Origin: Lachnospiraceae bacterium
Lineage (GTDB): Bacteria; Bacillota; Clostridia; Lachnospirales; Lachnospiraceae
DNA length: 37,145 nt
NCBI GenBank assembly: GCA_900199595.1
Contig: FZRB01000009.1
Location: forward strand, 99,218-136,362
Direction of reading: 5' to 3'
The position numbers were made by a program, and so were the translations under genes. The notes beneath the pieces were generated by a model. It saw only the letters and a list, made by a program, of their open reading frames with translations, did no database searches and was not told the origin of the DNA. Of the stretch, positions 6,033 to 37,145 are shown in pieces (within the stretch, counting starts at the first letter, position 1; each line of letters opens with the position of its first letter).

Positions 6033-6084
6033 TATATACCTTCTTTCGTTTTTTGTTTGTAACCCGTTTTACCTTTTTATTCCA

Positions 6085-6107
6085 TATGACATACGGATTG
6101 TGTCATA
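6085..6107. promoter_or_regulatory. Inverted repeat upstream of ppk1 (possible operator)
   Basis: TATGACA at 6085-6091 and TGTCATA at 6101-6107 form a perfect 7-bp inverted repeat with a 9-base spacer, 53 bases before the ppk1 start. A TACAAT box (minus strand 6120-6115) could be a -10, but its -35 position is a T-run belonging to the neighbouring terminator, so no promoter is claimed firmly. The 15-mer ATGACATACGGATTG here (6086-6100) recurs upstream of the TetR gene (13084-13098); one such match in a window this size can be chance. Confidence 0.3.
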
Positions 6108-6134
6108 ATTGATTATTGTAACATATCTATCGTA

Positions 6135-6170
6135 TAAAAAAAAGGGCGGACTAGTTTGCACAGTCCGCTC
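6135..6170 (-). terminator. Intrinsic terminator of the MMPL/heptad-repeat operon
   Basis: Read on the minus strand, GCGGACT (6167-6161) and AGTCCGC (6152-6146) form a GC-rich stem that runs into a run of T residues (CCCTTTTTTTT). It follows the stop codon of the heptad-repeat gene by about 50 bases. A second perfect hairpin (GTACACT/AGTGTAC, about 6174-6192) lies between the stop and this terminator. Confidence 0.9.
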
Positions 6171-6215
6171 CCGGTACACTTCAGCAGTGTACTAGTGTAT
6201 AGAGAGGATGAACTC

Positions 6216-8720
6216 CTATTTCTTATCTTTTCCAACACCCTCAACCTTTATTATGAATTTAGTTTTTCCTGTCATAGACGAAGACTTTCCACCAAATGAC
6301 TGATACTCTTCTGTAGCCCTGCTGACCTTATTCAGATCATCTACATAACCGTCAACATCCTTCTGAGCTGACTTAAGCTTCTTAATTATCAGTTCTGTCG
6401 CCGACTTAAGCTGATCAGCTCCATCTCTCAGTTTTCCGCTGTTAGAGGACAGTTCGTCAGTTCCATTCTTAAGCTGGCCAACACCATCATCAAGAGTAGC
6501 TGTTCCTTCATCCAGAATATCAGCACCTGATTTGATCTGAAGAAGACCTGTCTTAAGAGATCCAGCTCCCTTGTCCAGTTTGCCAAGTCCTGTTGTAAGA
6601 CTCTTTGTTCCTGATTCAAGTTCCTTGGCTCCATCAGAAAGCTTCTTTGTTCCACCTGCCAGTTTCGTTGCTCCGTCAGACAGATTCTTTGCACCATCTG
6701 CCACCTGACCGGCACCTGTTGCTACCGCCTGTGAGCCTTCATAGGCTGATACCGTACCCTCGGCAAGGGCCTGTGAACCTGTATAGGCTGATGCGGCTCC
6801 TGAGGAAATCTTCTGTGCCCCTGAATAAGCTCCTGATACTCCTGCAGTATAACTGTTTATTCCTTCACTCAGAGCAGATGCTCCACCTGCCAGCTGACTT
6901 ACTCCATTAGTATAACTTGATATCCCGTCCTTTAATCCTGAAGTTCCGGCTTTCAGATCCGAAAGGCCAGCGCTGGCCTGACCTAATTTATCAGATACAC
7001 TTCCAAGTGCAGCAGCTGCTCCGGCTGCTTCTCCATACTGCTCTATGGTTGCAGCATACTGCTCCATATATGATGCATAACTCTCCATACATGCAACATA
7101 TGCGTCCATATCCTCTGCATCCTTCGCTGCATCTGCTTCTGCCTTCGCTGCATCTGCTGCAGCCTTCAGAAGATCGGCTCCGCCCTTCGCGGTATCAGCT
7201 CCACTCTGATAAGTGGATGCATTTGACTGTATTTCGCCTGCCGCCTCAGTCATGGCACTTATAAGTGTATCGACACCAGCATCAACCGCTGCTATACCAT
7301 TATTTAAACTGTCATTATTCTCCGTGAGCTGTGATATTCCGCCTTCAAGCTGAGATACACCATTTGTAAGATCCGAACCCTTGGAATCAAGTGTCTTTAG
7401 ACCTTCTTCCAGACTTGAAGCTCCATCAGACAGACTTGAAAGTCCTGTATTTAAGCTGGTCGAACCGGTCTTCAGCTGACTCAGTCCATCCTTAAGGCTG
7501 TCTGCTCCGGTTGATAGGCTTGACGCTCCGGTTGATAGGCTTGATGCTCCGGTTGATAAGGTTTCGGCACCTGTATTTAATTCTGTGGCACCATTCTTAA
7601 GCTCTGTCGAACCACTTTCAAGCTTTGAAGAACCATCATAAGCCGACTTGATTCCTTTCTTCAGTTCTCCTGCTCCTTCAGCAGCATCTCCGGCACCCTT
7701 TGCCAGATCACCTGTTCCACCTGCAAGCTTCTCAGTACCACTCTTTAATGTCGTGACTCCGTCCGCCACTTTATCAACACCGCCTGTGTATTGCATAATT
7801 CCCAGATCCAGTGAATTCATTCCATCACGATACTCATCTGAGGCATCATTTATCTTCTCCTCTATCCCTGATATATCTATATCTTCATCAAACAGTGCCT
7901 CCGGCTGAGCTTCTGTTATACTCATGCCTATTTCAAACTTGGTAGTATCAGCTTCTATTTCGAAATAATCAGGAATGTCTATATCCTTTTTGTTAAGTCC
8001 CAGACTCTTTTTCAGTCCCGGCATTCCATAACCTATAACTATATATCTCATACCATCGGATATGAGTCGTCCGTTGGTTATCTCTATATTACTGAAATTC
8101 TTCTGATCGAGGATCATGGCAGTAAGCATAAGGATTGAAGCATTTACATCACCGCTCTTTGCCTTGTTAATATATTCATATCTGATCTTAACATGTCCTG
8201 ACTTATCGGCTATATCTTCTGCATCCACTTCTTCTCCATCAAGATAGTAGCTGACTTTTATGCCCACTGGTAGCTCTTGATCAGTACTTCCCTGATAATA
8301 TATATCCTCACCGTTGGATTTCCAGGTAACCTTATTACCATTCTGGGAATAGCTTTCCTCTCCCTTTACATTTTCTATATCCTTAAGTGAACTTTCATCC
8401 TCGATAACATCCTTATTATCCGGATTCTTTAACCATTCCTCAACTATGGTTTTCTTTGCATCTCCGTCTGTATCAGCTATTATATATACTGTCTCTTCTT
8501 TGTCGGCATTTTTATTTTTTCCAAATGTCAGACTTTGATCCAGCACTTCTTTAAGCTCATCTATATCTTCCGGCTTATCATCAGAACTGCTTTCTGCTGC
8601 ATAAACCTTGCTGACATTAGCATTATTATTTCTGTAAAATGTACCGGCCGGCATACTGACTGCCAGCATTATGGCTGCTGCAACTGCTATATATTTTTTA
8701 TAAATATTCTTTCTCATCAT
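6216..8720 (-). CDS. Secreted XXXLXXG heptad-repeat protein (YhgE/Pip-like tail, no ABC-2 domain)
   Basis: This 834-aa protein has a signal peptide (1-41). A globular N-terminal part (45-290) contains an acidic, Tyr-rich beta-like region. Two long blocks of XXXLXXG heptads follow (about 314-480 and 586-775, with units such as SSLSTGA and KLSDGAK), separated by an Ala/Tyr-rich coiled segment (500-575). The C-terminus ends in TGKTKFIIKVEGVGKDKK with no membrane anchor. Such heptads are known from YhgE/Pip proteins and from genes next to MMPL transporters; the heptad probably forms a long rod. Unlike YhgE, no ABC-2 membrane segments are present. It lies 28 bases after the MMPL gene, with AGAGGAAT before its start codon, so the two should work together. 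A likely role is an extracellular rod or adaptor for the transporter. The domain reading is firm; the role is inference. Confidence 0.85.
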   Translation of the reverse strand: MMRKNIYKKYIAVAAAIMLAVSMPAGTFYRNNNANVSKVYAAESSSDDKPEDIDELKEVLDQSLTFGKNKNADKEETVYIIADTDGDAKKTIVEEWLKNPDNKDVIEDESSLKDIENVKGEESYSQNGNKVTWKSNGEDIYYQGSTDQELPVGIKVSYYLDGEEVDAEDIADKSGHVKIRYEYINKAKSGDVNASILMLTAMILDQKNFSNIEITNGRLISDGMRYIVIGYGMPGLKKSLGLNKKDIDIPDYFEIEADTTKFEIGMSITEAQPEALFDEDIDISGIEEKINDASDEYRDGMNSLDLGIMQYTGGVDKVADGVTTLKSGTEKLAGGTGDLAKGAGDAAEGAGELKKGIKSAYDGSSKLESGSTELKNGATELNTGAETLSTGASSLSTGASSLSTGADSLKDGLSQLKTGSTSLNTGLSSLSDGASSLEEGLKTLDSKGSDLTNGVSQLEGGISQLTENNDSLNNGIAAVDAGVDTLISAMTEAAGEIQSNASTYQSGADTAKGGADLLKAAADAAKAEADAAKDAEDMDAYVACMESYASYMEQYAATIEQYGEAAGAAAALGSVSDKLGQASAGLSDLKAGTSGLKDGISSYTNGVSQLAGGASALSEGINSYTAGVSGAYSGAQKISSGAASAYTGSQALAEGTVSAYEGSQAVATGAGQVADGAKNLSDGATKLAGGTKKLSDGAKELESGTKSLTTGLGKLDKGAGSLKTGLLQIKSGADILDEGTATLDDGVGQLKNGTDELSSNSGKLRDGADQLKSATELIIKKLKSAQKDVDGYVDDLNKVSRATEEYQSFGGKSSSMTGKTKFIIKVEGVGKDKK
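7503..7565. repeat. 21-bp tandem repeat inside the heptad-repeat gene
   Basis: Three near-identical copies of a unit based on GCTCCGGTTGATAGGCTTGA encode three heptad pairs (residues about 386-407). The DNA identity is much higher than between the other heptads, which points to recent duplication and makes this a site for length change by slippage. Confidence 0.8.
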
Positions 8721-8748
8721 TCATTCCTCTTTTCTATCAAGTAATTAT

Positions 8749-10842
8749 CTACTGTCCCAGACGATGTCTGAGTATTCTCTTTTCCGAAAATCCCATGGAG
8801 GTTCTGACTATGATTCCGTCAAAAACTCTCAGTACTGCCGGAAGCAGAAGAACTACAACAAACATACTGATCAAAGCGCCTCGTGCCATAAGCGTGCACA
8901 GAGCACTTATCATATCTATCTTTGAATACATTCCAACACCTATTGTTGCCGCAAAGAAGGATAATGCACTTACAAAAATAGATGTTATAGAGCCTTCAAG
9001 TGCCGCTGTAACCGCCTGTTTTTTATCCATGCCCGAAACTCTTGCTGTTTTATATTTATTGGTCATAAGTATGGCATAATCCACTGTCGAACCAAGCTGT
9101 ATCGTACCGATTACTATAGAAGCTATGAATGGCAGTACTGCTCCGGTATAGTGAGGTATTCCCATATTAATGAATATGGCAAACTCTATAACAGAAACCA
9201 GCAGAACAGGAAGTGATATCGATTTGAAAACTATTGCTATTATTACTGCAACCAGAATTATCGAAACACTGTTAACTATTTTAAAGTCTCTATCCGTTAC
9301 CTTTATCAGATCCTGTGTACAAGGAGCTTCTCCTATAAGCATTCCGTTCTTATCATATTTATCAAGTATTTCATTAATCTTATCGCACTGGGCATTTACC
9401 TCTTCTGAGGCAACTCTGTATTCCGACATAATGAATATAAGCTGATACTCTCCATCATCAACCAGATCTCTGATATGCTGAGGTATCATATCCTTCGGAA
9501 AGCCTGCTCCGATAAGCGAATCAATACCAAGTGTTGCCTTAACTCCCTCGACATCATTTATCTCATCTGTCATTTCTCTGATCTTTGTATCATCAAGATC
9601 TGAATCGAAAAGTATCATGTGCGTCGAGTTCATTTCAAATGTTTCCTCAAGTTTTTTATTTGCCTGTATGCTGTCCAGCTCCTGAGGAAGCGATGAATCC
9701 AGATTGTAATAAACCTTGTTGTGACTCTGACCATAAAAAGCAGGAACTATGAGAACTGCAAAAAGTATTAGAGCTATATAATAATGCTTTACTATGTATG
9801 AACTGATCTTTGAAAAATCAGGAATGACCGGCTTATGGGTTGTTTTTGTAATAGCCTTATCGAATACAAGTATCATGGATGGAAGCACTGTTACACAGCA
9901 TACAACACCGATAAGAACTCCCTTTGCCATTACTATTCCCATATCAAATCCAAGAGTAAAGCTCATAAACATAAGGGCAACGAAACCTGCTATTGTTGTA
10001 ACAGAACTTCCCATAACAGATACAAGAGTACTGTTTATCGCATTTGCCATAGCTTTGAGATTATCATCCGGGTAGCTCAGCTTTTCATCTCTATAGCTGT
10101 GCCACAGGAATATTGAATAATCCATTGTTACGGCAAGCTGCAGAACCGCTGCCAGAGCTTTAGTCACATATGAGATTTCACCTCTCATTACATTTGAACC
10201 CATATTGTAGACAATTGCCAGACCAATACTTAGCAGAAAGAAAATCGGGATAAGAAATGAATCCATCGTCAGCATAAGTACTGTAAGCGAAAGTGCAACT
10301 GCAATTGCCACATACACAGGAACCTCTTTATCACTCAGATTCTTTGTATCAATTACTACTGCGGACATACCGCTCAAGAATACCTGTCTGTCAGCGATAG
10401 CCCTTATATCCTCTATACCTTTTAAGGTTTCATCAGCCGAAAGAGTTGTATCAAAGAAGATTATCATCAACTGAGAATCTCCTCTTATCAGACTGTCTTT
10501 CAGTTCATCGGGAAGCAGCTCCTTCGGTACAGTTTCATCCATGAAAGAACCGCACCAAAGTACCCTCTTTACATGGTCCACCTTTTCTATCTTATCTGCG
10601 AGCTTACGGATATCCTTATCCTTCATGCCCTCAACCACAACCATTGAAAAAGCTCCGGTTCCAAAATCCTCAGCAAGGATATTCTGTCCCTTCATGGTCT
10701 CGATATCCTTCGGAAGATAAGTCAGAATATCATAATTGGTTCTTGTCTTTAGATAACCTATAGCTGATGGAATCATCATCAGAACAGCTATTATGAGAAT
10801 TGGGATTCTGAGCTTTACAACTGTTTTTCCAAAAATCTCCAC
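8749..10842 (-). CDS. MMPL/RND-superfamily membrane transporter
   Basis: About 697 aa from the GTG start. The layout is TM1 (near 10-30), an extracytoplasmic domain (35-170), five TM helices (about 174-332), TM7 (354-370), a second extracytoplasmic domain (to about 522) and five TM helices to about 690. This is the duplicated 12-TM RND fold. Each half has an Asp-Tyr pair in the fourth helix of its bundle (D241-Y242 in VTMDYSIFLW, D588-Y589 in STVDYAILMT), the known proton-relay residues of MmpL transporters. Family members export lipids, lipopeptides or drugs using the proton gradient. I chose the GTG at 10842 because AGGAGG (10854-10849) sits 6 bases before it; the in-frame ATG at 10860 has no good ribosome site. 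It is transcribed from the promoter at 11016-11045 with two operator palindromes, together with the heptad-repeat gene. The substrate is unknown. Confidence 0.92.
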   Translation of the reverse strand: MEIFGKTVVKLRIPILIIAVLMMIPSAIGYLKTRTNYDILTYLPKDIETMKGQNILAEDFGTGAFSMVVVEGMKDKDIRKLADKIEKVDHVKRVLWCGSFMDETVPKELLPDELKDSLIRGDSQLMIIFFDTTLSADETLKGIEDIRAIADRQVFLSGMSAVVIDTKNLSDKEVPVYVAIAVALSLTVLMLTMDSFLIPIFFLLSIGLAIVYNMGSNVMRGEISYVTKALAAVLQLAVTMDYSIFLWHSYRDEKLSYPDDNLKAMANAINSTLVSVMGSSVTTIAGFVALMFMSFTLGFDMGIVMAKGVLIGVVCCVTVLPSMILVFDKAITKTTHKPVIPDFSKISSYIVKHYYIALILFAVLIVPAFYGQSHNKVYYNLDSSLPQELDSIQANKKLEETFEMNSTHMILFDSDLDDTKIREMTDEINDVEGVKATLGIDSLIGAGFPKDMIPQHIRDLVDDGEYQLIFIMSEYRVASEEVNAQCDKINEILDKYDKNGMLIGEAPCTQDLIKVTDRDFKIVNSVSIILVAVIIAIVFKSISLPVLLVSVIEFAIFINMGIPHYTGAVLPFIASIVIGTIQLGSTVDYAILMTNKYKTARVSGMDKKQAVTAALEGSITSIFVSALSFFAATIGVGMYSKIDMISALCTLMARGALISMFVVVLLLPAVLRVFDGIIVRTSMGFSEKRILRHRLGQ

Positions 10843-10944
10843 GTTATTCCTCCTCTCCATACTCTTGAGTCGTTTTCTCTATACACCTGTAAAATAGACC
10901 TTATATCGAAAATTGTAATTAGACAGACTTTTATTCGTGAATAA

Positions 10945-24768: not shown

Positions 24769-27700
24769 TTAGATGGTTGATATACGTGGTGTTATATCCT
24801 CAAGAACATCTAAAAGAATCCTTACAGTATCAAGGGAAGTAAAGATTGTGACGCCATTCATTATGGCACATCTTCTTATTTCAGCACCATCCTGATAATG
24901 TATTCCGGACAGTATGGCTCTGGTATTTATTATATAACTTACGTAGCCGGCCTCGATAGATCTGAGAACCTCATCACTTCCGTCACTGAGCTTAGCTCTG
25001 ATACGGGTTCTGATCCCATGTTCCTTCAGAAACTCTCCGGTTCCTATAGTTGCCTCAATGTTGAAGCCCAGCTCGTAGAATCTTCTGACAAGCGGAAGTG
25101 CCTCTTCCTTATCCTCATCAGCAAGGGTTACCATTACTGTTCCGTATTCCTTCATCTTGATTCCTGATGCCTGGAGAGCCTTGTAAAATGCCCTCTTCAG
25201 ACTTCTGTCATAGCCGATGGCCTCTCCTGTTGACTTCATCTCCGGTGAAAGATACGGATCCATTCCATTTAACTTGGCAAATGAGAAGGCAGGGGTTTTA
25301 ACATACCACTTAAGTTCCTTCTTTGATGCATTTTCAATCTTGGCTCCGCCCTCTCCAGCAAGACCTGTGTAGCCCTGACTTTTCAGGCTGTTTCCGAGCA
25401 TAACTCTTACTGCTATATCTACAAGAGAATAGCCTGTAGATTTTGACAGGAACGGAACACTTCTGGATGCTCTAGGGTTAACCTCAATGATATAAACATT
25501 GTCCTGCTTATCAACTATAAACTGGATATTGAACAGACCCACGATACCCACTCCAAGTCCCAGCTTCGTGGTATAGTCTGTAATCGTTTCCTTAACCTTT
25601 TCGGATATAGAATATGGTGGATATACACTTGTACTGTCGCCGGAATGAACACCAGTTCTCTCAACCAGCTCCATTATTCCGGGCAGGAATACATCCGTTC
25701 CATCGCAGATGGCATCAACCTCCACCTCTTTTCCGACTATGTACTTATCAACAAGTACCGGTCTGTCCTCATCAACCTCAACGGCAGTTTTCAGATAATG
25801 ACGGAGCATTTCTTCATTAGCCACGATCTCCATGGCACGACCACCCAGAACGAAGCTCGGGCGAACCAGAACAGGATAACCTATTCCTTCAGCTGCCTTG
25901 ACACCGCTTTCAATATCTGTAACAGCAACTCCCTTTGGATGAGGGATATCAAGACTCTCGATAACGCCCTCAAATGCATCTCTGTCCTCAGCATTGAAGA
26001 TAGCTTTGCAGTCTGTGCCTATAATTTTAACACCACGGGCTGCCAGCGGCTCAGCCAGATTGACAGCAGTCTGACCACCCAGAGAGGTGATAACACCTTC
26101 AGGATTTTCCAGGTCGATTATATTCATTATATCTTCAACCGTAAGTGGTTCAAAATATAGTTTATCTGCCGTAGTATAATCAGTAGAAACCGTTTCCGGA
26201 TTATTGTTTATTACTATGGCCTCATAACCCATATCGTGTATGGTTCTTACTGCATGAACTGTTGAGTAGTCAAACTCAACACCCTGACCGATTCTTATAG
26301 GACCTGAGCCAAGAACTATAATCTTCTTTTTATCAGAAACCACAGATTCATTTTCAGTCTCATAAGTAGAATAAAAATACGGAACATAGCTGTCAAATTC
26401 GCTTGCACAGGTATCAATCATCTTATAAACCGGCTTTATATCATACTGCTTACGAAGCTTCCAGATATCATCCTCAGAGCATCCTAAAAGCTCAGCTATA
26501 TACGAATCGGAAAAGCCCATTTTCTTGGCATCATAAAGTGTTTCCTTATCAGGAGTCTGACCTGATTCGGCCATTGCTTCAAGCTTTCTCTCGAAATCAA
26601 CAATATTCTTTATCTTATCCAGGAAGAACATGTCTATTCCTGTTTTGTTATATATAACCTGAAGATCCACTCCCAGCCATATCAGCTGTGATAATGCATA
26701 GATACGGTCGTCTGTTCCGTCCTCAACATACTTGAGAAGCTTTTTGACCGCTTCCTTCTTTGCCTCTTTGCTGTCCTCTTTATCTGAAAGACTCTTTACA
26801 TCGAACTTCTCCAGATGTATATGATTCTTTCCGTCCTCCAGAGATCTGATAGCCTTAAGAAGGCTTTCCTCTGCAGTACGTCCGATACTCATGGTTTCAC
26901 CGGTTGCCTTCATCTGGGTTGAGAGTACATTTGACGCAAGAGTGAACTTATCAAACGGGAATCTCGGCATCTTGGTAACCACATAATCAAGTGCAGGCTC
27001 AAAGCATGCCGGAGTGTTGGCAAGCATTATCTCATCAAGATTCATTCCTACTGCTATCTTTGCAGAAACTCTCGCAATAGGATAACCGCTGGCCTTGGAA
27101 GCCAGTGCGGAGGATCTGGATACTCGAGGATTCACCTCAATAACATAGTACTTGAAAGACTGCGGATCCAGAGCGAACTGACAGTTACAGCCTCCCTCTA
27201 CGCCCAATGCCCTAATGATTCTGAGAGCACTGTCACGAAGCATATGATACTCCTTGTTGGTAAGTGTCTGACTTGGAGCCACAACTATAGAATCTCCTGT
27301 ATGTATTCCCACAGGATCCATATTTTCCATATTACAGACTACGAGAGCCGTATCATTTGCGTCTCTCATAACCTCGTACTCTATTTCCTTATAGCCTTTG
27401 ATGCTCTTTTCAACGAGTACCTGATGAACCGGAGAAAGAGCAAGCGCATTCTTCATCATATCGCTCATTTCTTCCGGATTATTGGCAAAACCACCGCCGG
27501 TTCCACCGAGGGTAAATGCGGGTCTCAGGATTACAGGATATCCTATTTCTTCTGCTGCCTTAAGTCCCTCCTCAACCGAATAGGTTATTTCCGATGGAAC
27601 TATAGGCTCTCCCAGCTTCTCACAGAGTTCCTTGAACTCTTCTCTGTCCTCGGCACATCTGATACTTGCTGCATCAGTTCCCAGAAGCTCTATCTCACAT

Positions 27701-28029
27701 TCTTCAAGAACACCCTTATCATAGAGCTGCATAGCCAGATTAAGTCCGGTCTGTCCACCTATGCCCGGAACGATCGCATCCGGTCTCTCATAACGGCAGA
27801 TACGCGCCATATATTCCAGTGTAAGGGGTTCCATATATACCTTATCGGCAATCATTGTGTCTGTCATGATGGTAGCAGGATTTGAATTGGCAAGAACCAC
27901 CTCATACCCCTCTTCCTTAAGTGCCAGACAGGCCTGGGTTCCGGCATAATCGAACTCTGCTGCCTGACCGATTACGATAGGACCGGAGCCGATTACGAGT
28001 ATTTTGTGTATATCTTTTCTCTTGGGCAT
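24769..28029 (-). CDS. carB: Carbamoyl-phosphate synthase large subunit
   Basis: The 1086-aa product is full length. Both halves carry the pre-ATP-grasp motif ([20 protein letters not shown] near the start and [20 protein letters not shown] near residue 575). Both ATP-grasp domains have their metal-binding ends ([20 protein letters not shown] and [20 protein letters not shown]). The C-terminal MGS-like allosteric domain (about 935-1086) ends in [20 protein letters not shown]. It makes carbamoyl phosphate from bicarbonate, ATP and the ammonia supplied by CarA, for pyrimidine and arginine synthesis. It follows carA by 13 bases. No pyr or arg gene is adjacent, so the pair is a stand-alone carAB locus. 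Confidence 0.98.
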
Positions 28030-28042
28030 TTTTCTTTCCTCT

Positions 28043-29116
28043 TTATAGGTTGTTTACAAATCTATCAAACAGATACGTGCTGTCCTGTGGACCGGGAGCG
28101 CTTTCAGGATGATACTGTACTGAGAACACCTTTCCATCCTCGGAGCAGAGTCCCTCAACTGTATTATCCAGAAGGTTGATGTGTGATACCTTAAGTCCGG
28201 TTCCTTCTATACTCTTTTCATCAACTGCATAGCTGTGATTCTGACTTGTTATCTCTATCCTTCCTGTTGCAAGATCCTTAACAGGATGATTTCCGCCTCT
28301 GTGACCGAACTTCAGCTTATAGGTCTTCGCACCATAGGCGAGCGCTATAAGCTGATGACCGAGGCATATACCGAACATCGGAAGCTCACCCTTCAGTGTC
28401 TTCAGGCATTCGATAACCTCCGGAACATCCTCCGGATCTCCGGGACCGTTTGATATAAACAGTCCGTCAGGATTCATTTTGATTATCTCCTCTGCGGGAG
28501 TATTGTATGGAACTACGGTAACATTGCAGCCGTGGGCATTCAGCTCGCGAACTATGTTCATTTTCATTCCGCAGTCTATTGCGACTACATTATACTTATG
28601 ATTTGAGGTTCTGGAATACCATCTCTTTTTTGAGCTGCATCTTGCAACCATGTCACGTCTCAGCTCAGTATTCTTCAGCTTCTCCAGTCCCTCCTCCAGG
28701 GTTGTATCTGCCCCTGTTATCAGAACCTTTCTCGAACCAAAGTCTCTTATGCTTCGGACAAGCTTTCTTGTATCCACACCGTAGATTCCCGGCACGTCCG
28801 AATCTTCCAGAAGCTCAGACAGAGTCCTTGTAAATCGGAAATTCGATGGAAACTCATTTACCTCTCTTACAATAAGAGCTCCGAGATTGATCATCTTACT
28901 CTCGAAGTCCTCATCAGTAATTCCATAATTTCCTATAAGGGGATATGACATTACTATTGCCTGATCCGTATAGGATGGATCGGATATGATTTCCTGGTAG
29001 CCTGCCATGGAAGTATTAAATACGATCTCACAGACTGCCTCTTTGTCGGCACCAAAGCCAACTCCGTAATATTCACTGCCATCCTCTAAAATAAGTTTTT
29101 TGTTATAGTACGACAT
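28043..29116 (-). CDS. carA: Carbamoyl-phosphate synthase small subunit (glutaminase)
   Basis: The 357-aa product has the N-terminal CarA domain ([34 protein letters not shown]) and a class I glutamine amidotransferase domain with the complete triad: Cys251 in FGICLGHQ, His336 and Glu338 in [18 protein letters not shown] (272-279) is the typical CarA motif. It releases ammonia from glutamine and channels it to CarB. A promoter lies at 29215-29242 and a hairpin in the leader at 29142-29175. Confidence 0.97.
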
Positions 29117-29141
29117 AATATTTTCCTGCTCTTTTCTTTAA

Positions 29142-29175
29142 AAGGCACTTCGAGCCTTAAACTCAAAGCGCCTTT
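29142..29175 (-). promoter_or_regulatory. Hairpin in the carA leader (possible attenuator)
   Basis: Minus strand AAAGGCGCTTTGAG and its partner CTCGAAGTGCCTTTT form a stem of about 10 bp or more, ending in TTTT, between the predicted carA promoter and its ribosome site. Because the promoter lies upstream of it, the hairpin is in the carA mRNA. It could act as an attenuator. No PyrR-binding consensus was seen. Confidence 0.5.
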
Positions 29176-29214
29176 GCTTCATAAAACAATTTATTAATTT
29201 TCTTAACAAATATT

Positions 29215-29242
29215 AGTATATAACTTTGTTTTTAAAAGTCAA
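29215..29242 (-). promoter_or_regulatory. Promoter of carAB
   Basis: Minus-strand -35 TTGACT (29242-29237) and -10 TATACT (29220-29215) are 16 bases apart, directly after the stop of the EAL-domain gene. The predicted leader is about 90 bases. Confidence 0.7.
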
Positions 29243-29253
29243 GAATGATTTTA

Positions 29254-31395
29254 TCAATCATTTGATAAATTAAATTCTTCCCATTCCATGCCTTTTGACT
29301 TAGTAAATGCTTTCGTCTCTTCCATCGGCATAGGCTTTCCGAAATAATAGCCTTGGGCTTTTTCACAGCCTATCTTCTTAAGGAATTCATAGTGTTCTTC
29401 GGTTTCAACGCCCTCACACAGCGGAAGCAGTCCCATTCCTCTTGCTCCTTCTATTATGTAGGTCATAAGGTCTGCTGCCTTCGGATACTTATCATAGCTT
29501 CTCAGGAAGACCATATCCAGCTTCAGAACGTCGAACTCATACTCCACCAGATTATTAAGTGAAGAATAACCACTTCCGAAGTCGTCCAACCATACCTGAT
29601 AGCCAAGAGAACGCATTTTTCTGCACTCCTCACTTATATAGCCTGAGCTGTCCTTCATGACACTTTCTGTAATCTCCAGATCCAGCATACTAATCGGGAC
29701 GTTGTATTTCTTTCTTGTATTTTCAACTACACTGAATATATCACAGAGTTCAAAGTCAAGACTCGAGAAATTGATAGATGCCGGAACTATAGGGTCACCA
29801 TTTTCTATTATCTTATTATAGTCTTTGCAGACTCTTTCAACCACAAATGTATCTACCTTATGAATCAGATGATAATTTTCCAGAGTTTCTATAAAGTCTG
29901 CCGGTGACAACATACCAACATTCGGATCCACCCATCTGACAAGAGCCTCATAGCCGCATATCTTACCGGTGCTGACTCTTACAACCGGCTGATAGAAAAC
30001 CTTTATATATTCATTCTCTATCGCTTCATCAACATGATCAACTACGTACTGCTGCTTTCTCATACGCTCTCTTATCATCTCATCATAGATGCAGATATTT
30101 ACGTCATGTCTGCCCTTTATGCTGTTGCAGGCGAGACGCGCGTGATCACAGGCAAGACCTATCTCCGTATATCGGTCCTCCATATAGTAGATACCGGCCT
30201 TAAGTCTGACTCTCTTTGCAGACTCTTCTGTCTGGAGAACCTTCTTATATACAGCCTCCACCTTGTTGGATATATTTTCCTTGCTTCCCATGGAGCAGAC
30301 AACAAAATGGTCATTGGAGAAACGGGAAACCACAGCACCAGTGAACTCATTTTTTATGGTCTTTGCTATATCACAAAGGAGCTCATCTCCTAAGAGGAAT
30401 CCGTTTCTTTCATTGAAGAGTTTAAAGTTCGGTATATCAAAATGTATTATAGATATGTGCTTTCTTCTGTTCTCCGGAGATGACAGAAGCATCTGTACAT
30501 TCTGATAGAAGAAGGACATATTGAAAAGTCCCGTAAGTGGGTCTGTTTCCTGATTCATGGAAAGTATTTCTGCCTCAGCCAGCGAATTCCTGCTGCGGTT
30601 CAGATACTCGTTCTGATCAACATCCACTATAAATACATAGAAATAGCTCTCTCCGTTTTTACCGTGAAGCAAATGGCCGAAGTCCTCTATATACTTTATA
30701 TCGCCCTGCTTATCGATGATTCTGTAACGAACATAGTCGTGCCTTTTCTCTCCGAACATTGTCTGAGCCTGTATCTGATTTTCTATCTTATGAAGATCAT
30801 CAGGATGAACCATTCCCTTAAAGGAATTGCCCACGTAATCCCTGAATTCCTCAAGAGTCTCACATCCGTACATCTTAATGATATTATCCTCTGCAAAAAG
30901 GATTTCTTCATCCTCATTGTTTCTGTATATAAAAAAACCTCCGGGAAGATCTGTGGGAATGTGTCCTGATAAATATTGCTTAAGAGCCTTCTTTAAATAT
31001 TCATATCTCAGAAGCTTTTCTTCTTTAGCAAAATGTACATCCCTCGTCTGCTCAGGATTATTCTCATAGGAAAGGACCTCATCACCAAACTGCTCACTTG
31101 TAAGGTCAAATATATGTCCATCCACTTCGTTGTAGCAGTGGAAATTTCCGCCTTCACGAGGTATCCCATAAACCTTTCCGCCAAATATATCCTGCACGAG
31201 AAAGGCTGTAATAGAGCACTGTCCGAGAGTCTTGTTATCCCTGCTCCACTCACTTCTGAGTCTGGGAGCCGCTGTATATTCACACCATACATTCGATAAA
31301 GCGTCATACAGCTGTCTCGGCGTCTCTATTCCTTTGTATTCTTCAGTCTTTGCCGAAACTGTTGCTTCTTCCCAGCCATAAAACTCATAGCCCAT
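29254..31395 (-). CDS. YunG-like / PAS / degenerate GGDEF / EAL protein (predicted c-di-GMP phosphodiesterase)
   Basis: The 713-aa soluble product has four modules. (1) Residues 25-140 resemble YunG-family proteins: LGQCSITAFLVQDIFGG with Cys60, NFHCYN with His86 and HIFDLTSEQF with Asp97, a papain-like Cys-His-Asp set. (2) A PAS fold lies at about 153-262 (VHPDDLHKIENQ, RYRIIDKQGDIKYIE). (3) A GGDEF domain (284-440) starts with DPLTGLFNMSFF, but its signature reads SNDHF (360-364) instead of GGDEF, so it should not make c-di-GMP. (4) An EAL domain (445-690) keeps the catalytic set: YEALVRW (Glu483), Asn542, Glu574, DDFGSGYSS (Asp604-605), Lys625, Glu661 and Gln681. It should therefore hydrolyse c-di-GMP. 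The ATG is 2 bases after the stop of the DegV-kinase gene, with AGGAG inside that gene's end; co-translation is likely. The YunG-like call is the least certain. Confidence 0.88.
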   Translation of the reverse strand: MGYEFYGWEEATVSAKTEEYKGIETPRQLYDALSNVWCEYTAAPRLRSEWSRDNKTLGQCSITAFLVQDIFGGKVYGIPREGGNFHCYNEVDGHIFDLTSEQFGDEVLSYENNPEQTRDVHFAKEEKLLRYEYLKKALKQYLSGHIPTDLPGGFFIYRNNEDEEILFAEDNIIKMYGCETLEEFRDYVGNSFKGMVHPDDLHKIENQIQAQTMFGEKRHDYVRYRIIDKQGDIKYIEDFGHLLHGKNGESYFYVFIVDVDQNEYLNRSRNSLAEAEILSMNQETDPLTGLFNMSFFYQNVQMLLSSPENRRKHISIIHFDIPNFKLFNERNGFLLGDELLCDIAKTIKNEFTGAVVSRFSNDHFVVCSMGSKENISNKVEAVYKKVLQTEESAKRVRLKAGIYYMEDRYTEIGLACDHARLACNSIKGRHDVNICIYDEMIRERMRKQQYVVDHVDEAIENEYIKVFYQPVVRVSTGKICGYEALVRWVDPNVGMLSPADFIETLENYHLIHKVDTFVVERVCKDYNKIIENGDPIVPASINFSSLDFELCDIFSVVENTRKKYNVPISMLDLEITESVMKDSSGYISEECRKMRSLGYQVWLDDFGSGYSSLNNLVEYEFDVLKLDMVFLRSYDKYPKAADLMTYIIEGARGMGLLPLCEGVETEEHYEFLKKIGCEKAQGYYFGKPMPMEETKAFTKSKGMEWEEFNLSND

Positions 31396-31397
31396 AA

Positions 31398-34076
31398 TTA
31401 TTTTCTCCTATACAAAAGTCCGAAGGTTCCGGGGCCGCAGTTAAGTGCAATAACCGGTGATGCCTTCTGGAATATAATCCTGTCAAACTTCATTTTTTTA
31501 TTAATTTCTTTTTCTATCAGATTCAGATCCTTCTGACTCATTCCCACATAGGTAACAAACAGAAGCCTGTTATCAATACTCTGAGGGAAACGAAGTTCTC
31601 TGTCGATATAATGGATCCAGGAATTCTCCTGGGAACCGAAGAATATCCTGCCTACGCGGATACGTCCCTTCTTCATTCTGAGAACAGGTCTCATCAGAAT
31701 AGCGTTAGAAATAACATTTATCCAGTTATCTACCTGTCCTGCCCTGGTCATATATTTCAGACTACTTACAACGAAGCTGGTAGAAAAGCTGGTACGTTCA
31801 TTCTCCAGTGTAGTCTTTATCATATCGGCGCTGAGGCCCTCTCTTACCAGGCGACAGGCCTCAAGTGCCATAAGTCCCTGACCACTTGAAAGATGTCCTG
31901 TATCAACAACCGTAACATTATCAAAGGCTTCCGCAGCCTCAACGGCCATAGGACATCCACTATCATTTACATCCTTTGAAATGGAAACATGGATTATGTT
32001 GTGCGCGTGTGAGAGAAGGCCTGCAAAAAAGGCTTCATATTCCTCTACTGACGGGGCTACATTTCGAGCCACATTGTCCCCGTTCTCCATATACGAAACC
32101 AGACCCTGAGATTCTATCTCTACTCCATCAGTGAATACACCTTCATTCGTCCTTATCTTGTGAGGAATAACAGCTATCCTGTATTTTTCTATGAGATCCG
32201 GCGAGATATCCGCCACGCTGTCTGTGGAAATAATAACCTCAACTTTTCTCTCATGCTCATTCAGCCAGGACATACTCTCTTCTACTATTTTATCATCAGA
32301 ATAAACCAGATGAACCAGATCCTTCGGAAGAAGTCTGAGACACTCATTTTCAAGAGCCTCTCCACTGGTCGGCTTGACGAGATATCCATCAAAGCCCTCT
32401 GATGAATAGAAAGCCTTGTTATCTGAACCGGCATTTGCCGTAAGTGCCACAACCTTGGAAGCTCTGCACATACCGCCCACCTGATTTTTTATCCGGTGAA
32501 GACATTCTATTCCGTCCATCTCAGGCATCATGTGATCCATGAAGATGAGGTGATATTCCTTGGAAATGGTCTTTTCAAGAGCAGCGGCACCACTGTCTGC
32601 TGTATCTATCTGAATCTTTGTATCTCTGAGAAGCTTTGTAACAACCAGGAGATTGGAAGCATTATCATCCACCACCAGCACCTTTGCATCAGGCGCATCA
32701 AAACGCTTCACATACTCGGACCGGTGGGACATGGAGCCCTTTATCTCAGAGCTGTAGGTCCTCTCACCTGCCAGAGAATCACCCACCACAACCTGTGGGA
32801 TATCTATGATAAATGTAGAGCCCTTTGTATAAACACTGTTAACAGTTATATTTCCGCCCATGAGCTCAACCAGCTGCTTAACTATGGCAAGACCAAGTCC
32901 TGTTCCCTCGATATATCTGTTTTCTGTTTCATCCACCCTCTTGAAGGCCGTAAAAAGGTACGGTATGCTTTCCTTTTTTATACCGATACCGGTGTCTGTT
33001 ACCGTAAATGTAACAATGCCCTGTTTCTCTTTTCCTTGTCTGAACTGTATGGAAAGAGTCACGGAACCTTCAGAGGTATACTTGATCGCATTGTTAAGTA
33101 TATTGATCAGTATCTGCTTTATACGGACTTCATCACCGTACAGATCTGTAGGAAGATTCGGGTCTATATCCGTATGGAAGCTGAGTCCCTTTTCTTTAGC
33201 CCGCATCCAGAACATGCCGACTATCTCGGATATCATATCACCGATATTGTAATTAACAGGCGCCAGTTCCATTTTACCTGACTCGATCTTAGACATATCA
33301 AGGATGTCATTGATGAGGTGAAGAAGCATCTTACTTGCTGAACGCACATTGTTCGCATCCTCCGCAACCTCTTCGGATATATCCTCTCTGAGGATCATCT
33401 CATTCAAACCGATGATCGTATTGATAGGTGTTCTTATCTCATGACTCATGCTGGAGAAGAAGGAATTCTGGGATTTATTCAGATCATCGATTTCTCTCAG
33501 CTGTTCCTCGGAGCGGTGATAGGCTTCTCTTAGAATTCTGACCTCAAATTCAATAAGGAAACATACGAGTGTACACACCAGAATTACGGAAATCAGTGAA
33601 TCCTGGAACACCATTTCTTCGTCATGCATGGTGATCATCTCAGGATGCAGATACTGGATGAAGTAGCAGATGATTATTACAATTATATTTGCTCCCATCA
33701 GGAACCATCTTCTTCGTCCGGTTATTATCATACAGGTGAATACCGTACAGAATATAAACCAGATAGGAGATCCGCCGTTGATTCCGCCTCCCGTGATAAA
33801 TGTAACAGGCATGACAATAAAGATAAGAAGCGCAGCAACTATAGTTGCACACAGCTGCACCTTATTATAGTGAAATGCTACGTAGGCTATAATACCAAAT
33901 ACAACAAATGCTATTCCCATAGTCACTATATCTTCGGTGCTTTCGCCTATAACTATTCCGACTATCATGATAACGAAAAGTGCAGACATGGCAACAAGCG
34001 TAAGCAATATCAGCATACGCTCCTGTGCATCCTTATTCTGATCAAAAAGTCCGGATATCCATTTCTTAAAACGCAT
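31398..34076 (-). CDS. Membrane hybrid histidine kinase fused to a DegV (fatty-acid-binding) domain
   Basis: The 892-aa product has six membrane helices (about 21-178) and a short coiled linker. HisKA carries His212 (SMSHEIRTPINTI). The ATPase domain has an N box (NILNNAIKYT, Asn329), DTGIGI (361-366) and GTGLGL (391-396). A receiver (464-584) has acidic pair Asp470-471, phospho-Asp514 (IFMDHMMPEMDG), Thr546 and Lys568. From about 613 to 891 a complete DegV fold follows: ISTDSVADISPDLIEKYRIAVIPHKI, YMENGDN..RNVAPSVEEY, VTVVDTGHLSSGQGLMALEA, LKYMTRAGQ and GPGTFGLLY. DegV/FakB proteins bind fatty acids and hand them to a kinase for phospholipid synthesis. The usual SG motif is altered (ISKDVNDSG), and the residues before GPG are NC rather than the His-containing pair, so binding may be changed. 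The HPt partner is encoded in the preceding gene (16-base gap). Confidence 0.92.
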   Translation of the reverse strand: MRFKKWISGLFDQNKDAQERMLILLTLVAMSALFVIMIVGIVIGESTEDIVTMGIAFVVFGIIAYVAFHYNKVQLCATIVAALLIFIVMPVTFITGGGINGGSPIWFIFCTVFTCMIITGRRRWFLMGANIIVIIICYFIQYLHPEMITMHDEEMVFQDSLISVILVCTLVCFLIEFEVRILREAYHRSEEQLREIDDLNKSQNSFFSSMSHEIRTPINTIIGLNEMILREDISEEVAEDANNVRSASKMLLHLINDILDMSKIESGKMELAPVNYNIGDMISEIVGMFWMRAKEKGLSFHTDIDPNLPTDLYGDEVRIKQILINILNNAIKYTSEGSVTLSIQFRQGKEKQGIVTFTVTDTGIGIKKESIPYLFTAFKRVDETENRYIEGTGLGLAIVKQLVELMGGNITVNSVYTKGSTFIIDIPQVVVGDSLAGERTYSSEIKGSMSHRSEYVKRFDAPDAKVLVVDDNASNLLVVTKLLRDTKIQIDTADSGAAALEKTISKEYHLIFMDHMMPEMDGIECLHRIKNQVGGMCRASKVVALTANAGSDNKAFYSSEGFDGYLVKPTSGEALENECLRLLPKDLVHLVYSDDKIVEESMSWLNEHERKVEVIISTDSVADISPDLIEKYRIAVIPHKIRTNEGVFTDGVEIESQGLVSYMENGDNVARNVAPSVEEYEAFFAGLLSHAHNIIHVSISKDVNDSGCPMAVEAAEAFDNVTVVDTGHLSSGQGLMALEACRLVREGLSADMIKTTLENERTSFSTSFVVSSLKYMTRAGQVDNWINVISNAILMRPVLRMKKGRIRVGRIFFGSQENSWIHYIDRELRFPQSIDNRLLFVTYVGMSQKDLNLIEKEINKKMKFDRIIFQKASPVIALNCGPGTFGLLYRRK

Positions 34077-34092
34077 AAACTATCCTCGCCTG

Positions 34093-36750
34093 TTATTCCT
34101 CATCAGGGAAAAACTCAAATATTTCTTCTTCCTCACCAGCCTCAAAGCCCTTGGCTTTAGATATGGTCTGGGTTATTTCATCATACTGCTTCATAAGCTC
34201 TTCGTGGTTTTCTTCCACGAACTCTAAGTTTCCTGCCTTTGAAGCAAGCTCCAGAGCCTTAGCTTTTGCAGAAAAACCTTCCGCTCCGATCATAAGAGAA
34301 GTGCTCTTTAATGAGTGAACAAGTATGGCATAATTCTTAAGATCCTTCTCTTTAAAATAATTATTCATTTTTTCTTTTTTATCCACAGCCTCATCAACAT
34401 ACTGCTGAAGAAGCGAATCATATAATTCCTCATCCTTCTCGCAGTATCCAAGACCTACACTTCTATCTATTCCACAGGAAGCAAGGATTTCTGTTTCTGA
34501 AGGTTCCGAAGACAGTCCATCCGGTGTTTCAACTGATGTTTTATCGGACATTTTATCGGACATTTTATCGGACATTTTATCGGACTTCTTGTCGGACATA
34601 TCGCCGGTCTGATCCGATCCGGGGGATGTTTCAGAAGCAACCTTAGCAGAATCTTCAGAAGCAGACTTTCTTGAATCTTCAGATACATCTTCATCATCCT
34701 CAAAAGTAACCAGCGCCTCAGGAAGAACCTTCTTAAGTACACGTTCCAGCTCACCCAGTTCAATAGGCTTGCTGACAAATCCGTCAAAGCCCTCAGCAAT
34801 GAACATTTCTCTTGCCGAACTGAGCGCATTTGCTGTAAGAGCTATAATTATAAAACTCTTCATGTTCTTGGTCCCGTCATAGCGTATACGCTTCATAGCC
34901 TCTACACCATCCATTCCGGGCATCATATGATCCATAAATATCACATCAAAATCTTCATTGATGCACATACTGATGGCTTCCTCACCGGATGCGGCCGTTC
35001 TGACCTCCATTCCGTACCTCTTGAATATTCCTCTGGCAACACTCAGGTTCATAGGTTCATCATCCACAACCAGAGCTCTCACGCCATCACACCTGATTTT
35101 CTTCTCAGGTGCCTCGGTAGGTGCTTTCTCAGAATTCAGAACTGCAACAACAGGAATACAGTAGAATGGCTTTCTCATTATCTGAGCCTTCGAATCCTTC
35201 GGAAGCTCATACGACGCTCTTGCCACAATGACTACCTGCATCTCAGATTCCAGCTTACTGATAAAATCACGGCTTCGCTCGTATTCCTCATCAGTAACAA
35301 AGAGATGAGTAAGCTTTACCTTATCCAGGAGCTTCGCAAGATCTGCCTCATTATCAACCCAGTGCATAGTAGTCTTTAATCCCTGAACGATATTCAGGAT
35401 CATCCTGTTGTAAAACTCTCTGACATTTGGATTACTGTATTTGCCAAGATCAAGATATGCACCCAGAGATATCTTTGATTCGTCAGCAACGATCATACAT
35501 TTTTCATCATCAACAACCTTCTGAGGAATGCTGACTCTTACTGTCGTTCCTTCACCCTGCTCGCTTAAAATAGTAATAAAACCGCCCATGGCACGGACAA
35601 AGCCCGATACTATGACCATGGATATTCCCAGACCGCCGGACCGGATCACTCTTCCGGACTGTGCCTGATAGAATCTGTTATAAATTCTGTCCAGCTCATC
35701 CTTCGACATGCCGACGCCGGTATCCCTTACCTCTATGCAGAGATTGACGCCATAGGCCTGCTTAATAACACTGAACTTTACATATACTCCACCTTCCTTG
35801 GTATACTTAAGACCATTATTGATAAGGTGGTATATAATCCTTTTCAGCTTTGTGGAGTCGCCCCTTAAAACTGCGGGTATCTCAGCATCAACATCAATTA
35901 TCAGTTCTATATCATCAGGCATGATCGGTCTCAGTTCGCTCACCAGATCGTTCAGAACTGAGGCTATCATGTAATTCTCATCATTTGTTACAAGGCTGTC
36001 CATCTCTATCTCGGAATAATCGAGGATATCTCCGACCTGATCTGCCAGACGATCACCGGCATTTAATATCTCGTTCATGTTGGCGCGCATTTCCTTATCT
36101 TCTACCTTATCAAGCATAACATTTGTTATACCAAGGATAGCATTGATAGGAGTACGCAGCTCATGTGAGAGATTTGCCATAAATGCATTCATACGCCTGG
36201 TGCTTTCATTCAGCTCCGCAATCCTTTCTCCGGACTTGCCAAAAAGAGCTGCCCAGCGTCTGATAATAGTACGCGCAAGCCAGCCGGCCATGAAAATTAA
36301 TCCTATATGAAGGATGGTTCTGGATATAAGAAGGCTGTCCCATTCGGTGCCTTGTATCGACATGACAACAACGTCATAAAGAAGAGTTACAAAATAAGTT
36401 ATCTGACATATATTTATGAGATTTATTTCGCCTGCCGTGGTATAGATCATGATCACGATCATCATCAGAAGCCCCATATCGTAGGCGCTGGTTACATGAA
36501 TTCCGTAAAAGAAAAATGATGCCATCATCAGAAGAGTAATTACCCATATCCTTACTCTGTCCGAAACGACCTGTGCTATATGCAAGCCCCAGCTCAGCAG
36601 AAGACCTGCCACCAGAAGAGGAATAGCCCACAGTTCCCATGACATCAAAATCGTCTCTGCTATAAGTCCACAGCAGAGTGCAGTATAACTCAAAAGTATC
36701 ATCAGAGGAGAAGTCTGGAAAACCCCTCCGTTTTTATTCTGATCAGACAT
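34093..36750 (-). CDS. Membrane hybrid histidine kinase with pseudo-receiver, receiver and HPt domains
   Basis: Counted from the ATG at 36750 the product has 885 aa. Five or six membrane helices lie in 14-165. HisKA has His196 (NLSHELRTPINAI). The ATPase domain has HLINNGLKYT (Asn312), DTGVGM (343-348) and GGLGIS (372-377). A receiver-like region (410-545) lacks the phospho-Asp pattern and looks like a pseudo-receiver. A true receiver (556-680) has Asp563-564, phospho-Asp607 (VIFMDHMMPGMDG), Thr639 and Lys661. An acidic and MSDK-repeat linker (683-755) leads to a C-terminal HPt domain with His812 (VHSLKSTSLMIGAEGFSAKAKALE). This is a complete internal phosphorelay (His-Asp-His). TGGGGA before the ATG at 36750 supports that start; a longer in-frame version from 36801 lacks support. 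It is first in the three-gene signalling operon. Confidence 0.92.
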   Translation of the reverse strand: MSDQNKNGGVFQTSPLMILLSYTALCCGLIAETILMSWELWAIPLLVAGLLLSWGLHIAQVVSDRVRIWVITLLMMASFFFYGIHVTSAYDMGLLMMIVIMIYTTAGEINLINICQITYFVTLLYDVVVMSIQGTEWDSLLISRTILHIGLIFMAGWLARTIIRRWAALFGKSGERIAELNESTRRMNAFMANLSHELRTPINAILGITNVMLDKVEDKEMRANMNEILNAGDRLADQVGDILDYSEIEMDSLVTNDENYMIASVLNDLVSELRPIMPDDIELIIDVDAEIPAVLRGDSTKLKRIIYHLINNGLKYTKEGGVYVKFSVIKQAYGVNLCIEVRDTGVGMSKDELDRIYNRFYQAQSGRVIRSGGLGISMVIVSGFVRAMGGFITILSEQGEGTTVRVSIPQKVVDDEKCMIVADESKISLGAYLDLGKYSNPNVREFYNRMILNIVQGLKTTMHWVDNEADLAKLLDKVKLTHLFVTDEEYERSRDFISKLESEMQVVIVARASYELPKDSKAQIMRKPFYCIPVVAVLNSEKAPTEAPEKKIRCDGVRALVVDDEPMNLSVARGIFKRYGMEVRTAASGEEAISMCINEDFDVIFMDHMMPGMDGVEAMKRIRYDGTKNMKSFIIIALTANALSSAREMFIAEGFDGFVSKPIELGELERVLKKVLPEALVTFEDDEDVSEDSRKSASEDSAKVASETSPGSDQTGDMSDKKSDKMSDKMSDKMSDKTSVETPDGLSSEPSETEILASCGIDRSVGLGYCEKDEELYDSLLQQYVDEAVDKKEKMNNYFKEKDLKNYAILVHSLKSTSLMIGAEGFSAKAKALELASKAGNLEFVEENHEELMKQYDEITQTISKAKGFEAGEEEEIFEFFPDEE
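34538..34600. repeat. 12-bp tandem repeat encoding MSDK units
   Basis: About four to five copies of a 12-base unit (ATTTTATCGGAC on the plus strand) encode the repeated MSDK of the linker before the HPt domain. A 12-base unit keeps the frame, so copy-number change would alter linker length without breaking the protein. Confidence 0.85.
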
Positions 36751-36801
36751 AGTGTATCCCCACAAAACACATAACCTTACGTCCCAAATACAACCATTCA
36801 A

Positions 36802-36830
36802 AGTATAACAATCTTCAGTCGCAAATGCAA
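36802..36830 (-). promoter_or_regulatory. Promoter of the signalling operon
   Basis: Minus-strand -35 TTGCAT (36830-36825) and -10 TATACT (36807-36802) are 17 bases apart and give a leader of about 45 bases before the ATG at 36750. Confidence 0.6.
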
Positions 36831-36877
36831 GATGACACTTTGAAGAGACAGCGTAAATTTACATTCGGAAATTAAAT

Positions 36878-37126
36878 GTGGGAACCCACCAAAGATAGCT
36901 GAGTGCTCAGCTATTAGATGCGCTGATTTTACTATACATTTAACTTCTTTGCAATACTGGGCTCCGCCCAGACCCGTCCCTCGTCGGGAAGGCAGGGAAA
37001 CAACTCTTGTTGTTTCCGGAACATAAGGGTTATCCGTGTCACTCCGTCAAGTGCTGCCCGGATGCTTCGCATCCAGCGTACTGTCACTTGACTACGTTCC
37101 CGCGCCACGATCTATAAATTATAGAT
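36878..37126. repeat. Cluster of perfect hairpins at the right edge (non-coding)
   Basis: No gene is visible in 36831-37145. Hairpins are GTGGG/CCCAC (36878-36889), ATAGCTGAG/CTCAGCTAT (36895-36914), CTGGGC-TCC-GCCCAG (36957-36971), CCCG/CGGG (36973-36988), GGAAACAAC-TCTT-GTTGTTTCC (36996-37017), GGATGC-TTC-GCATCC (37060-37074) nested in GTCAAGTG/CACTTGAC (37046-37092), and ATCTATAA/TTATAGAT (37110-37126). The middle part is GC-richer than its surroundings. It could be REP-like palindromic DNA, a structured RNA, or the terminator region of a gene beyond the edge; the sequence alone does not decide. Confidence 0.55.
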
Positions 37127-37145
37127 ATGGTTCTTTATCGCGAAA

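Follow-up and report, generated by a model that had tools for sequence, protein, structure and literature searches.

Two membrane hybrid histidine kinases encoded side by side, the second of which carries a DegV domain, raise the question of what this locus senses and where its signal goes. The window (the whole 37,145-nucleotide stretch of Lachnospiraceae DNA that was analyzed) holds the two kinase genes, HK1 and HK2, followed by a third gene with c-di-GMP domains. A sequence-only reading had described the three as a compact operon that may link a phosphorelay, lipid sensing, and c-di-GMP breakdown. When the gene positions were re-derived, all three agreed with that reading, as did the gaps of 16 bases between HK1 and HK2 and 2 bases between HK2 and gene 3. 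The features referred to below are as follows.

34093..36750, minus strand: HK1, a membrane hybrid kinase of 885 residues counted from the ATG (TM-HisKA-HATPase-probable degenerate receiver-like segment-REC-HPt; Pfam)
35086..35505, minus strand: MID1 segment of HK1, between HATPase and REC (residues 416 to 555), with no Pfam match
34738..35073, minus strand: REC domain of HK1 (residues 560 to 671; Pfam)
34174..34413, minus strand: HPt domain of HK1 (residues 780 to 859), with His812
31398..34076, minus strand: HK2, a membrane hybrid kinase of 892 residues (TM-HisKA-HATPase-REC-DegV; Pfam)
32349..32681, minus strand: REC domain of HK2 (residues 466 to 576)
31407..32231, minus strand: DegV domain of HK2 (residues 616 to 890), FakB fold, with N, Q, and F at the equivalents of His270, Arg173, and Arg205
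29254..31395, minus strand: gene 3, 713 residues (YunG-PAS-degenerate GGDEF-EAL; Pfam)
30970..31320, minus strand: YunG domain of gene 3 (residues 26 to 142)
29332..30033, minus strand: EAL domain of gene 3 (residues 455 to 688)
36847..37145, strand not assigned: multicopy repeat that runs to the contig end from a point 96 bases before the HK1 start codon

Pfam searches placed an HPt domain with its histidine at residue 812 at the C terminus of HK1, and a receiver followed by DegV (E 8e-40), without HPt, in HK2, both as the earlier reading had it. That reading had also found no DNA-binding output, and Pfam matched no such domain in any of the three window proteins; a helix-turn-helix protein is encoded upstream of HK1 in one relative (L187). 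The MID1 segment of HK1 probably has the look of a degenerate receiver, and it served as the marker for this kinase family. Both kinases resemble the BarA/TorS/ArcB/LuxQ types, which are their best NCBIfam kinase matches, all under the curated cut-offs; we know of no kinase of these types with a DegV domain. Downstream of the trio lie two genes (28043-29116 and 24769-28029) that we take, from their translations, to be carAB-like. A separate row at 2522-10860 comprises genes for a histidine kinase, a polyphosphate kinase, an unnamed 834-aa protein, and an MMPL-family protein.

Conservation of the kinase pair was examined in related genomes. With the HK2 DegV domain as the query against 299 genomes of the family, the top of the match list consisted mostly of open frames of ∼890 to 930 aa. 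Neighborhoods were taken of 60 loci family-wide, 36 loci in the genus (L165 being without the fusion), and 80 named GTDB loci, the best 80 of 547 confirmed relatives. The resulting 177 sources (176 loci plus the window) were cleared of 10 duplicate fusions and of six loci without a complete fusion (L047, L056, L081, L089, L092, and L165). The named loci are mostly MAGs, many of them titled as from the rumen or other ruminant gut, and the isolates with the locus include Lachnospiraceae bacterium NE2001, Lachnospiraceae bacterium G41, and Ruminococcaceae bacterium YAD3003. Across 391 surveyed genomes of the class, the matches listed include frames of at least 700 aa in at least nine genomes; six of these, counting the genome of the window itself, belong to the window's family and three to one genus of a second family.

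The proposed linkage of the first two genes was borne out by gene order. An HK+REC gene lies directly upstream, on the same strand, in 143 of the 163 distinct HK-REC-DegV fusions, and the gap is at most 30 bases in 125 of these 143 HK1-HK2 pairs, which may be cotranscribed. The 20 remaining fusions have no upstream ORF on the contig (5), pieces of HK1 or HK2 (13), or an opposite-strand ORF (2) at that position. Co-occurrence in the genus was nearly perfect: both markers were present in 38 of 61 genomes, HK1 alone in 1, the fused-type DegV alone in 0, and neither in 22, a fused-type DegV being a match of E 1e-22 or better (4 of the 38, G310, G324, G332, and G339, are partial frames). The residues expected of active kinases were largely kept. 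In aligned columns, HK1 (n = 143) retained the kinase His in 140 sequences, the ATP-site Asn and Asp and the REC Asp in 143, and the HPt His in 130; HK2 (n = 163) retained its His in 161 and the ATP-site Asn and Asp and the REC Asp in 163.

The distribution of the HPt domain bears on whether the two kinases act together. Of the 143 pairs, 134 carry it on HK1, 8 on HK2, 1 on neither, and 0 on both. A further, separate HPt gene is found nearby in 6 of the 134 HK1-HPt pairs, and the pair without HPt (L051) has HPt encoded separately, two genes upstream. Pfam confirmed an HPt domain after DegV in L050 and, in L056 (7595-11803), successive HK-REC, DegV-HPt, and REC-GGDEF genes that form a compact relay. 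Because the single HPt sits on either kinase and never on both, the two kinases appear to work through one phosphotransfer domain, and its occurrence on either kinase or on a DegV protein fits phosphate passing between HK1 and HK2. The His-Asp-His residues of a hybrid-kinase phosphorelay are intact in the pair; a receiver for the last step is present in the upstream regulators of relatives and, in the window's genome, in a candidate regulator on contig C12 (see below).

A likely destination of the phosphate is suggested by the genes upstream of HK1. In 82 of 135 loci, the gene directly ahead of HK1, on its strand and no more than 200 bases away, encodes a GGDEF, EAL, or HD-GYP domain, and 79 of these 82 also encode a REC domain, in keeping with the c-di-GMP output that had been suggested from the window. 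The background frequency, taken from genes of at least 150 aa more than three genes away, was 13 of 689 (Fisher 4e-62, a value that treats these mutually related loci as independent and so overstates their independence). Eight of the 143 pairs, the window's included, were left out of this count since the sequence stops there. The proportion was 18/47 in the family-wide sample, 21/30 in the genus, and 43/58 among the named loci; the 18/47 indicates that the c-di-GMP link is weaker in the wider family. Upstream proteins confirmed by Pfam were of the types REC-HD-GYP, REC-GGDEF-REC-HD-GYP, REC-GGDEF-REC, and REC-GGDEF, with REC-HD-GYP in 18/135 loci and REC-GGDEF-REC-HD-GYP in 28/135. The 53 loci without an upstream c-di-GMP domain have no close same-strand gene (15), a gene with none of the domains sought (15), REC only (12), an MCP (7), or others (4). 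In L080 and L082, the MCP gene upstream of HK1 is preceded by genes for CheW, CheA, and a REC protein.

Near relatives of the window vary at this position. The upstream gene encodes REC-GGDEF in L132 and an alpha-galactosidase-like protein in L130, where a REC-GGDEF-REC-HD-GYP gene adjoins HK2 on the opposite strand; the upstream proteins of L133 and L134 have no significant family. In the window's own genome, contig C12 encodes a 788-aa REC-GGDEF-REC-HD-GYP protein beside another HK-REC-HPt. This protein is the closest match to the L132 upstream regulator (66% identity over its residues 1 to 446), and it is likely the partner of the window pair, acting in trans. Phosphate would thus probably flow to a c-di-GMP response regulator besides, or instead of, passing from HK1 to HK2.

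A single promoter had been placed before HK1, but a consensus scan of 28000-37145 returned 20 sites versus 21.0 ± 3.9 in shuffled sequences, and the promoter reading was rejected because the site count is at chance level. The sole same-strand consensus site upstream of HK1 is a 9-of-12 match inside the multicopy repeat. This repeat (36847-37145) matches the genome at 12 places, counting itself, several of them at contig ends: three other copies are 99 to 100% identical over about 300 bases, four are 87% identical, and four are shorter. Its left border, 96 bases upstream of HK1, is sharp, and the repeat may be a mobile element or an rRNA flank. An Rfam search of ten sources yielded tRNAs only, in one source (L252), the other nine being empty. 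Since the window stops at the contig end, genes farther upstream of HK1 are out of view.

Does gene 3 supply the conserved output instead? The phosphodiesterase assigned to it earlier fits its domains: the EAL domain matches with an E of 3e-57, and residues E483, N542, E574, D604, D605, K625, E661, and Q681 align with 2r6o, an EAL domain of solved structure, where we take the equivalent residues to be catalytic. The GGDEF motif is degenerate (FSNDHF), and gene 3 is probably a c-di-GMP phosphodiesterase. A c-di-GMP gene, however, lies directly downstream of the fusion in 4 of 154 loci, the window included, and the form with YunG occurs there in the window only. In five genomes that carry the pair (G331, G340, G346, G341, and G349), the YunG-GGDEF-EAL gene is on a contig other than that of the kinase pair or its HK2. 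For gene 3, the scattering that the sequence-only reading had named as counting against it was thus observed, and membership of gene 3 in a conserved operon was not upheld. Gene 3 as a conserved output was rejected on these two grounds. Moreover, gene 3 has no REC domain through which the relay could phosphorylate it.

The N-terminal YunG domain of gene 3 (PF24585, E 3e-34) was absent from the earlier reading. YunG is present in 38 of 61 genomes of the genus, and GGDEF and EAL share a frame with it in 7 of 20 fetched YunG loci, the five genomes named above being among these; it also stands alone or near the C terminus of a larger protein (L257, L259, L260, and L275). All 21 aligned domains share Cys60, His86, and Asp97, which may recall a cysteine-peptidase or transglutaminase-like triad. 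A single-sequence structural model of the domain was poor (pLDDT 54.5), and the search for a solved relative gave three weak matches, none of them clear, the best being to actinohivin (E 0.0044).

Next, the DegV domain of HK2 was characterized. It scored 137 bits against Pfam PF02645 (cut-off, 27) and 158 against TIGR00762 (cut-off, 99.7), and its PDB sequence matches were led by 4x9x (2e-22). An AlphaFold model of REC-DegV had a mean pLDDT of 83.7 and a pTM of 0.60; with the linker at low confidence, no fixed interface between the two domains is visible. In a fold search with this model, the two best PDB matches were fatty-acid-binding DegV/FakB proteins (TM-scores by target length of 0.88 and 0.90). 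HK2 thus contains a DegV-family domain by sequence match, with the fold of FakB.

Residues that define FakB function were then compared. In Staphylococcus aureus FakB1, as described in excerpts of PMC8892158, the fatty-acid carboxylate is held by a network of Thr62, Ser95, Ser171, and His270, and Arg205 binds FakA; Arg173 is required in fatty-acid kinase catalysis (excerpts of PMC8892158 and PMC9136124), and both arginines are called completely conserved across the FakB family (PMC8892158). Positions were mapped by motif, with FakB2 numbers one below those expected. The window DegV has Q, F, and N at Arg173, Arg205, and His270. The signature of all three residues was found in 0 of 163 fusions versus 19 of 20 ordinary standalone DegVs. 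At the His270 column, Asn is present in 141 of 163 fusions; at Arg173, Gln in 104 and Arg in 28; and at Arg205, Arg is kept in 2 and replaced in 161, by Phe in 95. Thr62 and Ser95 were not relied on, Pro appearing in the Thr62 column of 36 fusions, probably through a small alignment shift. The window genome encodes one other DegV, a standalone protein with all three signature residues that is counted among the 19. These changes make transfer from the fused DegV to FakA unlikely. A response of the domain to fatty acids, as proposed earlier, is plausible, and the best reading is of a ligand receptor uncoupled from FakA, whose ligand would probably be a lipid.

To place the fused DegVs relative to standalone proteins, a maximum-likelihood tree was built from 71 of the 163 fusions (the window and 70 taken at random), 23 hand-picked standalones, and 3 PDB sequences. 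All 71 fused DegVs formed one clade (support, 95/80), which was recovered in 96% of 200 bootstrap trees. Its nearest relatives among the 23 standalones are three DegVs, each encoded directly 3' of an HK1-type gene (a gap of 9 bases and overlaps of 13 and 4 bases), one of them being followed by a REC-GGDEF gene. At position 270 all three already show Asn, and at 205 Phe or Ile, whereas position 173 is still Arg or Lys. DegV is a separate gene after HK1 in L313-L315. Other layouts were seen as well. DegV lies at the N terminus of HK2, ahead of the membrane part, in L051; in L047 it occupies its own frame behind HK2, perhaps as a broken fusion. In L081 (7814-10378), DegV is fused to an HK1-type protein without a Pfam HisKA or REC match, possibly a pseudokinase. 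It appears that the link of DegV to HK1 is older than its fusion to HK2 or that the standalones are later splits, the tree alone not deciding between the two. Either way DegV is tied to HK1, which makes it more likely that DegV regulates the relay than that it serves the HK2 receiver as an output.

We lean toward a two-kinase, one-HPt relay to a c-di-GMP regulator, with DegV as a specialized receptor, probably for a lipid. The two membrane hybrid histidine kinases, HK1 and HK2, would act as one unit, in which each kinase autophosphorylates and loads its own receiver. The lone HPt, on HK1 here, would take phosphate from both receivers and deliver it to the receiver or receivers of a c-di-GMP response regulator. 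DegV, probably unable to serve FakA, would bind a hydrophobic ligand, which is probably a lipid or a derivative of a fatty acid, and would bias the activity of a kinase or of the HPt. The neighboring EAL gene would contribute breakdown of c-di-GMP locally.

Four other explanations were weighed. DegV might be the output of HK2, with phosphorylation of the receiver opening or closing a domain that binds or releases lipid or contacts a protein; DegV does follow REC toward the C terminus, where response regulators usually carry their output, in all fusion layouts displayed except L051. We consider this unlikely, as DegV has no preceding receiver in L051, L313-L315, L056 (DegV-HPt), or L081. That DegV is a functional FakB, attached to a kinase and feeding fatty acids to FakA, is scarcely credible: the FakB fold is kept, at the TM-scores given above, but the joint signature is missing from every fusion, Arg205, the FakA docking residue in excerpts of PMC8892158, survives in 2 of 163, and the genome already has an ordinary DegV bearing all three residues.

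The other two concern the genes rather than the domain. If gene 3 were the true output and the three genes a closed circuit, the two-base gap in the window and the intact EAL residues would be accounted for; the rarity of a downstream c-di-GMP gene (4/154), the restriction of the YunG form to the window, its location elsewhere in the five genomes named above, and the lack of REC make this improbable. Still more doubtful is the proposal that HK1 and HK2 are independent and share only an operon, DegV being a structural or stability domain. In its favor, each kinase has its own catalytic residues, but HPt is never on both and co-occurrence is near-perfect, and the consistent residue change in DegV (Asn at 270 in 141/163) suggests a function.

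Among known systems, RpfC-RpfG of Xanthomonas offers a close comparison in layout. According to excerpts of PMC5391125, the hybrid kinase RpfC has five TM helices and carries REC and, at its C terminus, HPt; the HD-GYP regulator RpfG degrades c-di-GMP, and the DSF signal is a fatty acid. In some relatives, HK1 and the REC-HD-GYP gene upstream of it are arranged similarly, HK-REC-HPt being adjacent to REC-HD-GYP there; the candidate in the window's genome is on another contig. The present system differs in its second hybrid kinase with DegV, in regulators that often also contain GGDEF, and in the lack of an adjacent REC-HD-GYP in the window; RpfC is absent from the 25 NCBIfam names displayed for HK1, of 146 matched. 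In S. aureus, the FakAB-SaeRS link likewise ties the fatty-acid kinase to a two-component system, but the excerpted text of PMC5539427 notes no fusion or operon of the HK1-HK2 kind. The fused DegVs differ from FakB in that none of the 163 retains the signature trio as a whole and in being joined to a kinase, or kinase-adjacent in three relatives. Excerpts of PMC3146951 describe DegV as a neighbor of hemolysin III genes, and the titles and abstract openings of the matching open-licence PMC articles that were listed name no DegV-histidine-kinase fusion. Architecture databases probably hold such fusions already.

DegV proteins are known as fatty-acid carriers, and here a residue-altered clade is tied to histidine kinases and, through the upstream genes, to c-di-GMP (82/135). 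The shift of HPt between two kinases is a clean natural case of a shared phosphotransfer domain. Tentatively, the locus may represent a class of intracellular receptors for lipids that is widespread among Lachnospiraceae of the rumen and gut and some neighbors; DegV would have given up fatty-acid activation to serve as the sensor of a two-kinase, one-HPt relay that sets c-di-GMP levels, a Gram-positive counterpart to the fatty-acid-sensing RpfC-RpfG. If DegV binds lipid, the pair would connect the lipid state of membrane or diet directly, and in a way open to testing, with c-di-GMP in rumen bacteria.
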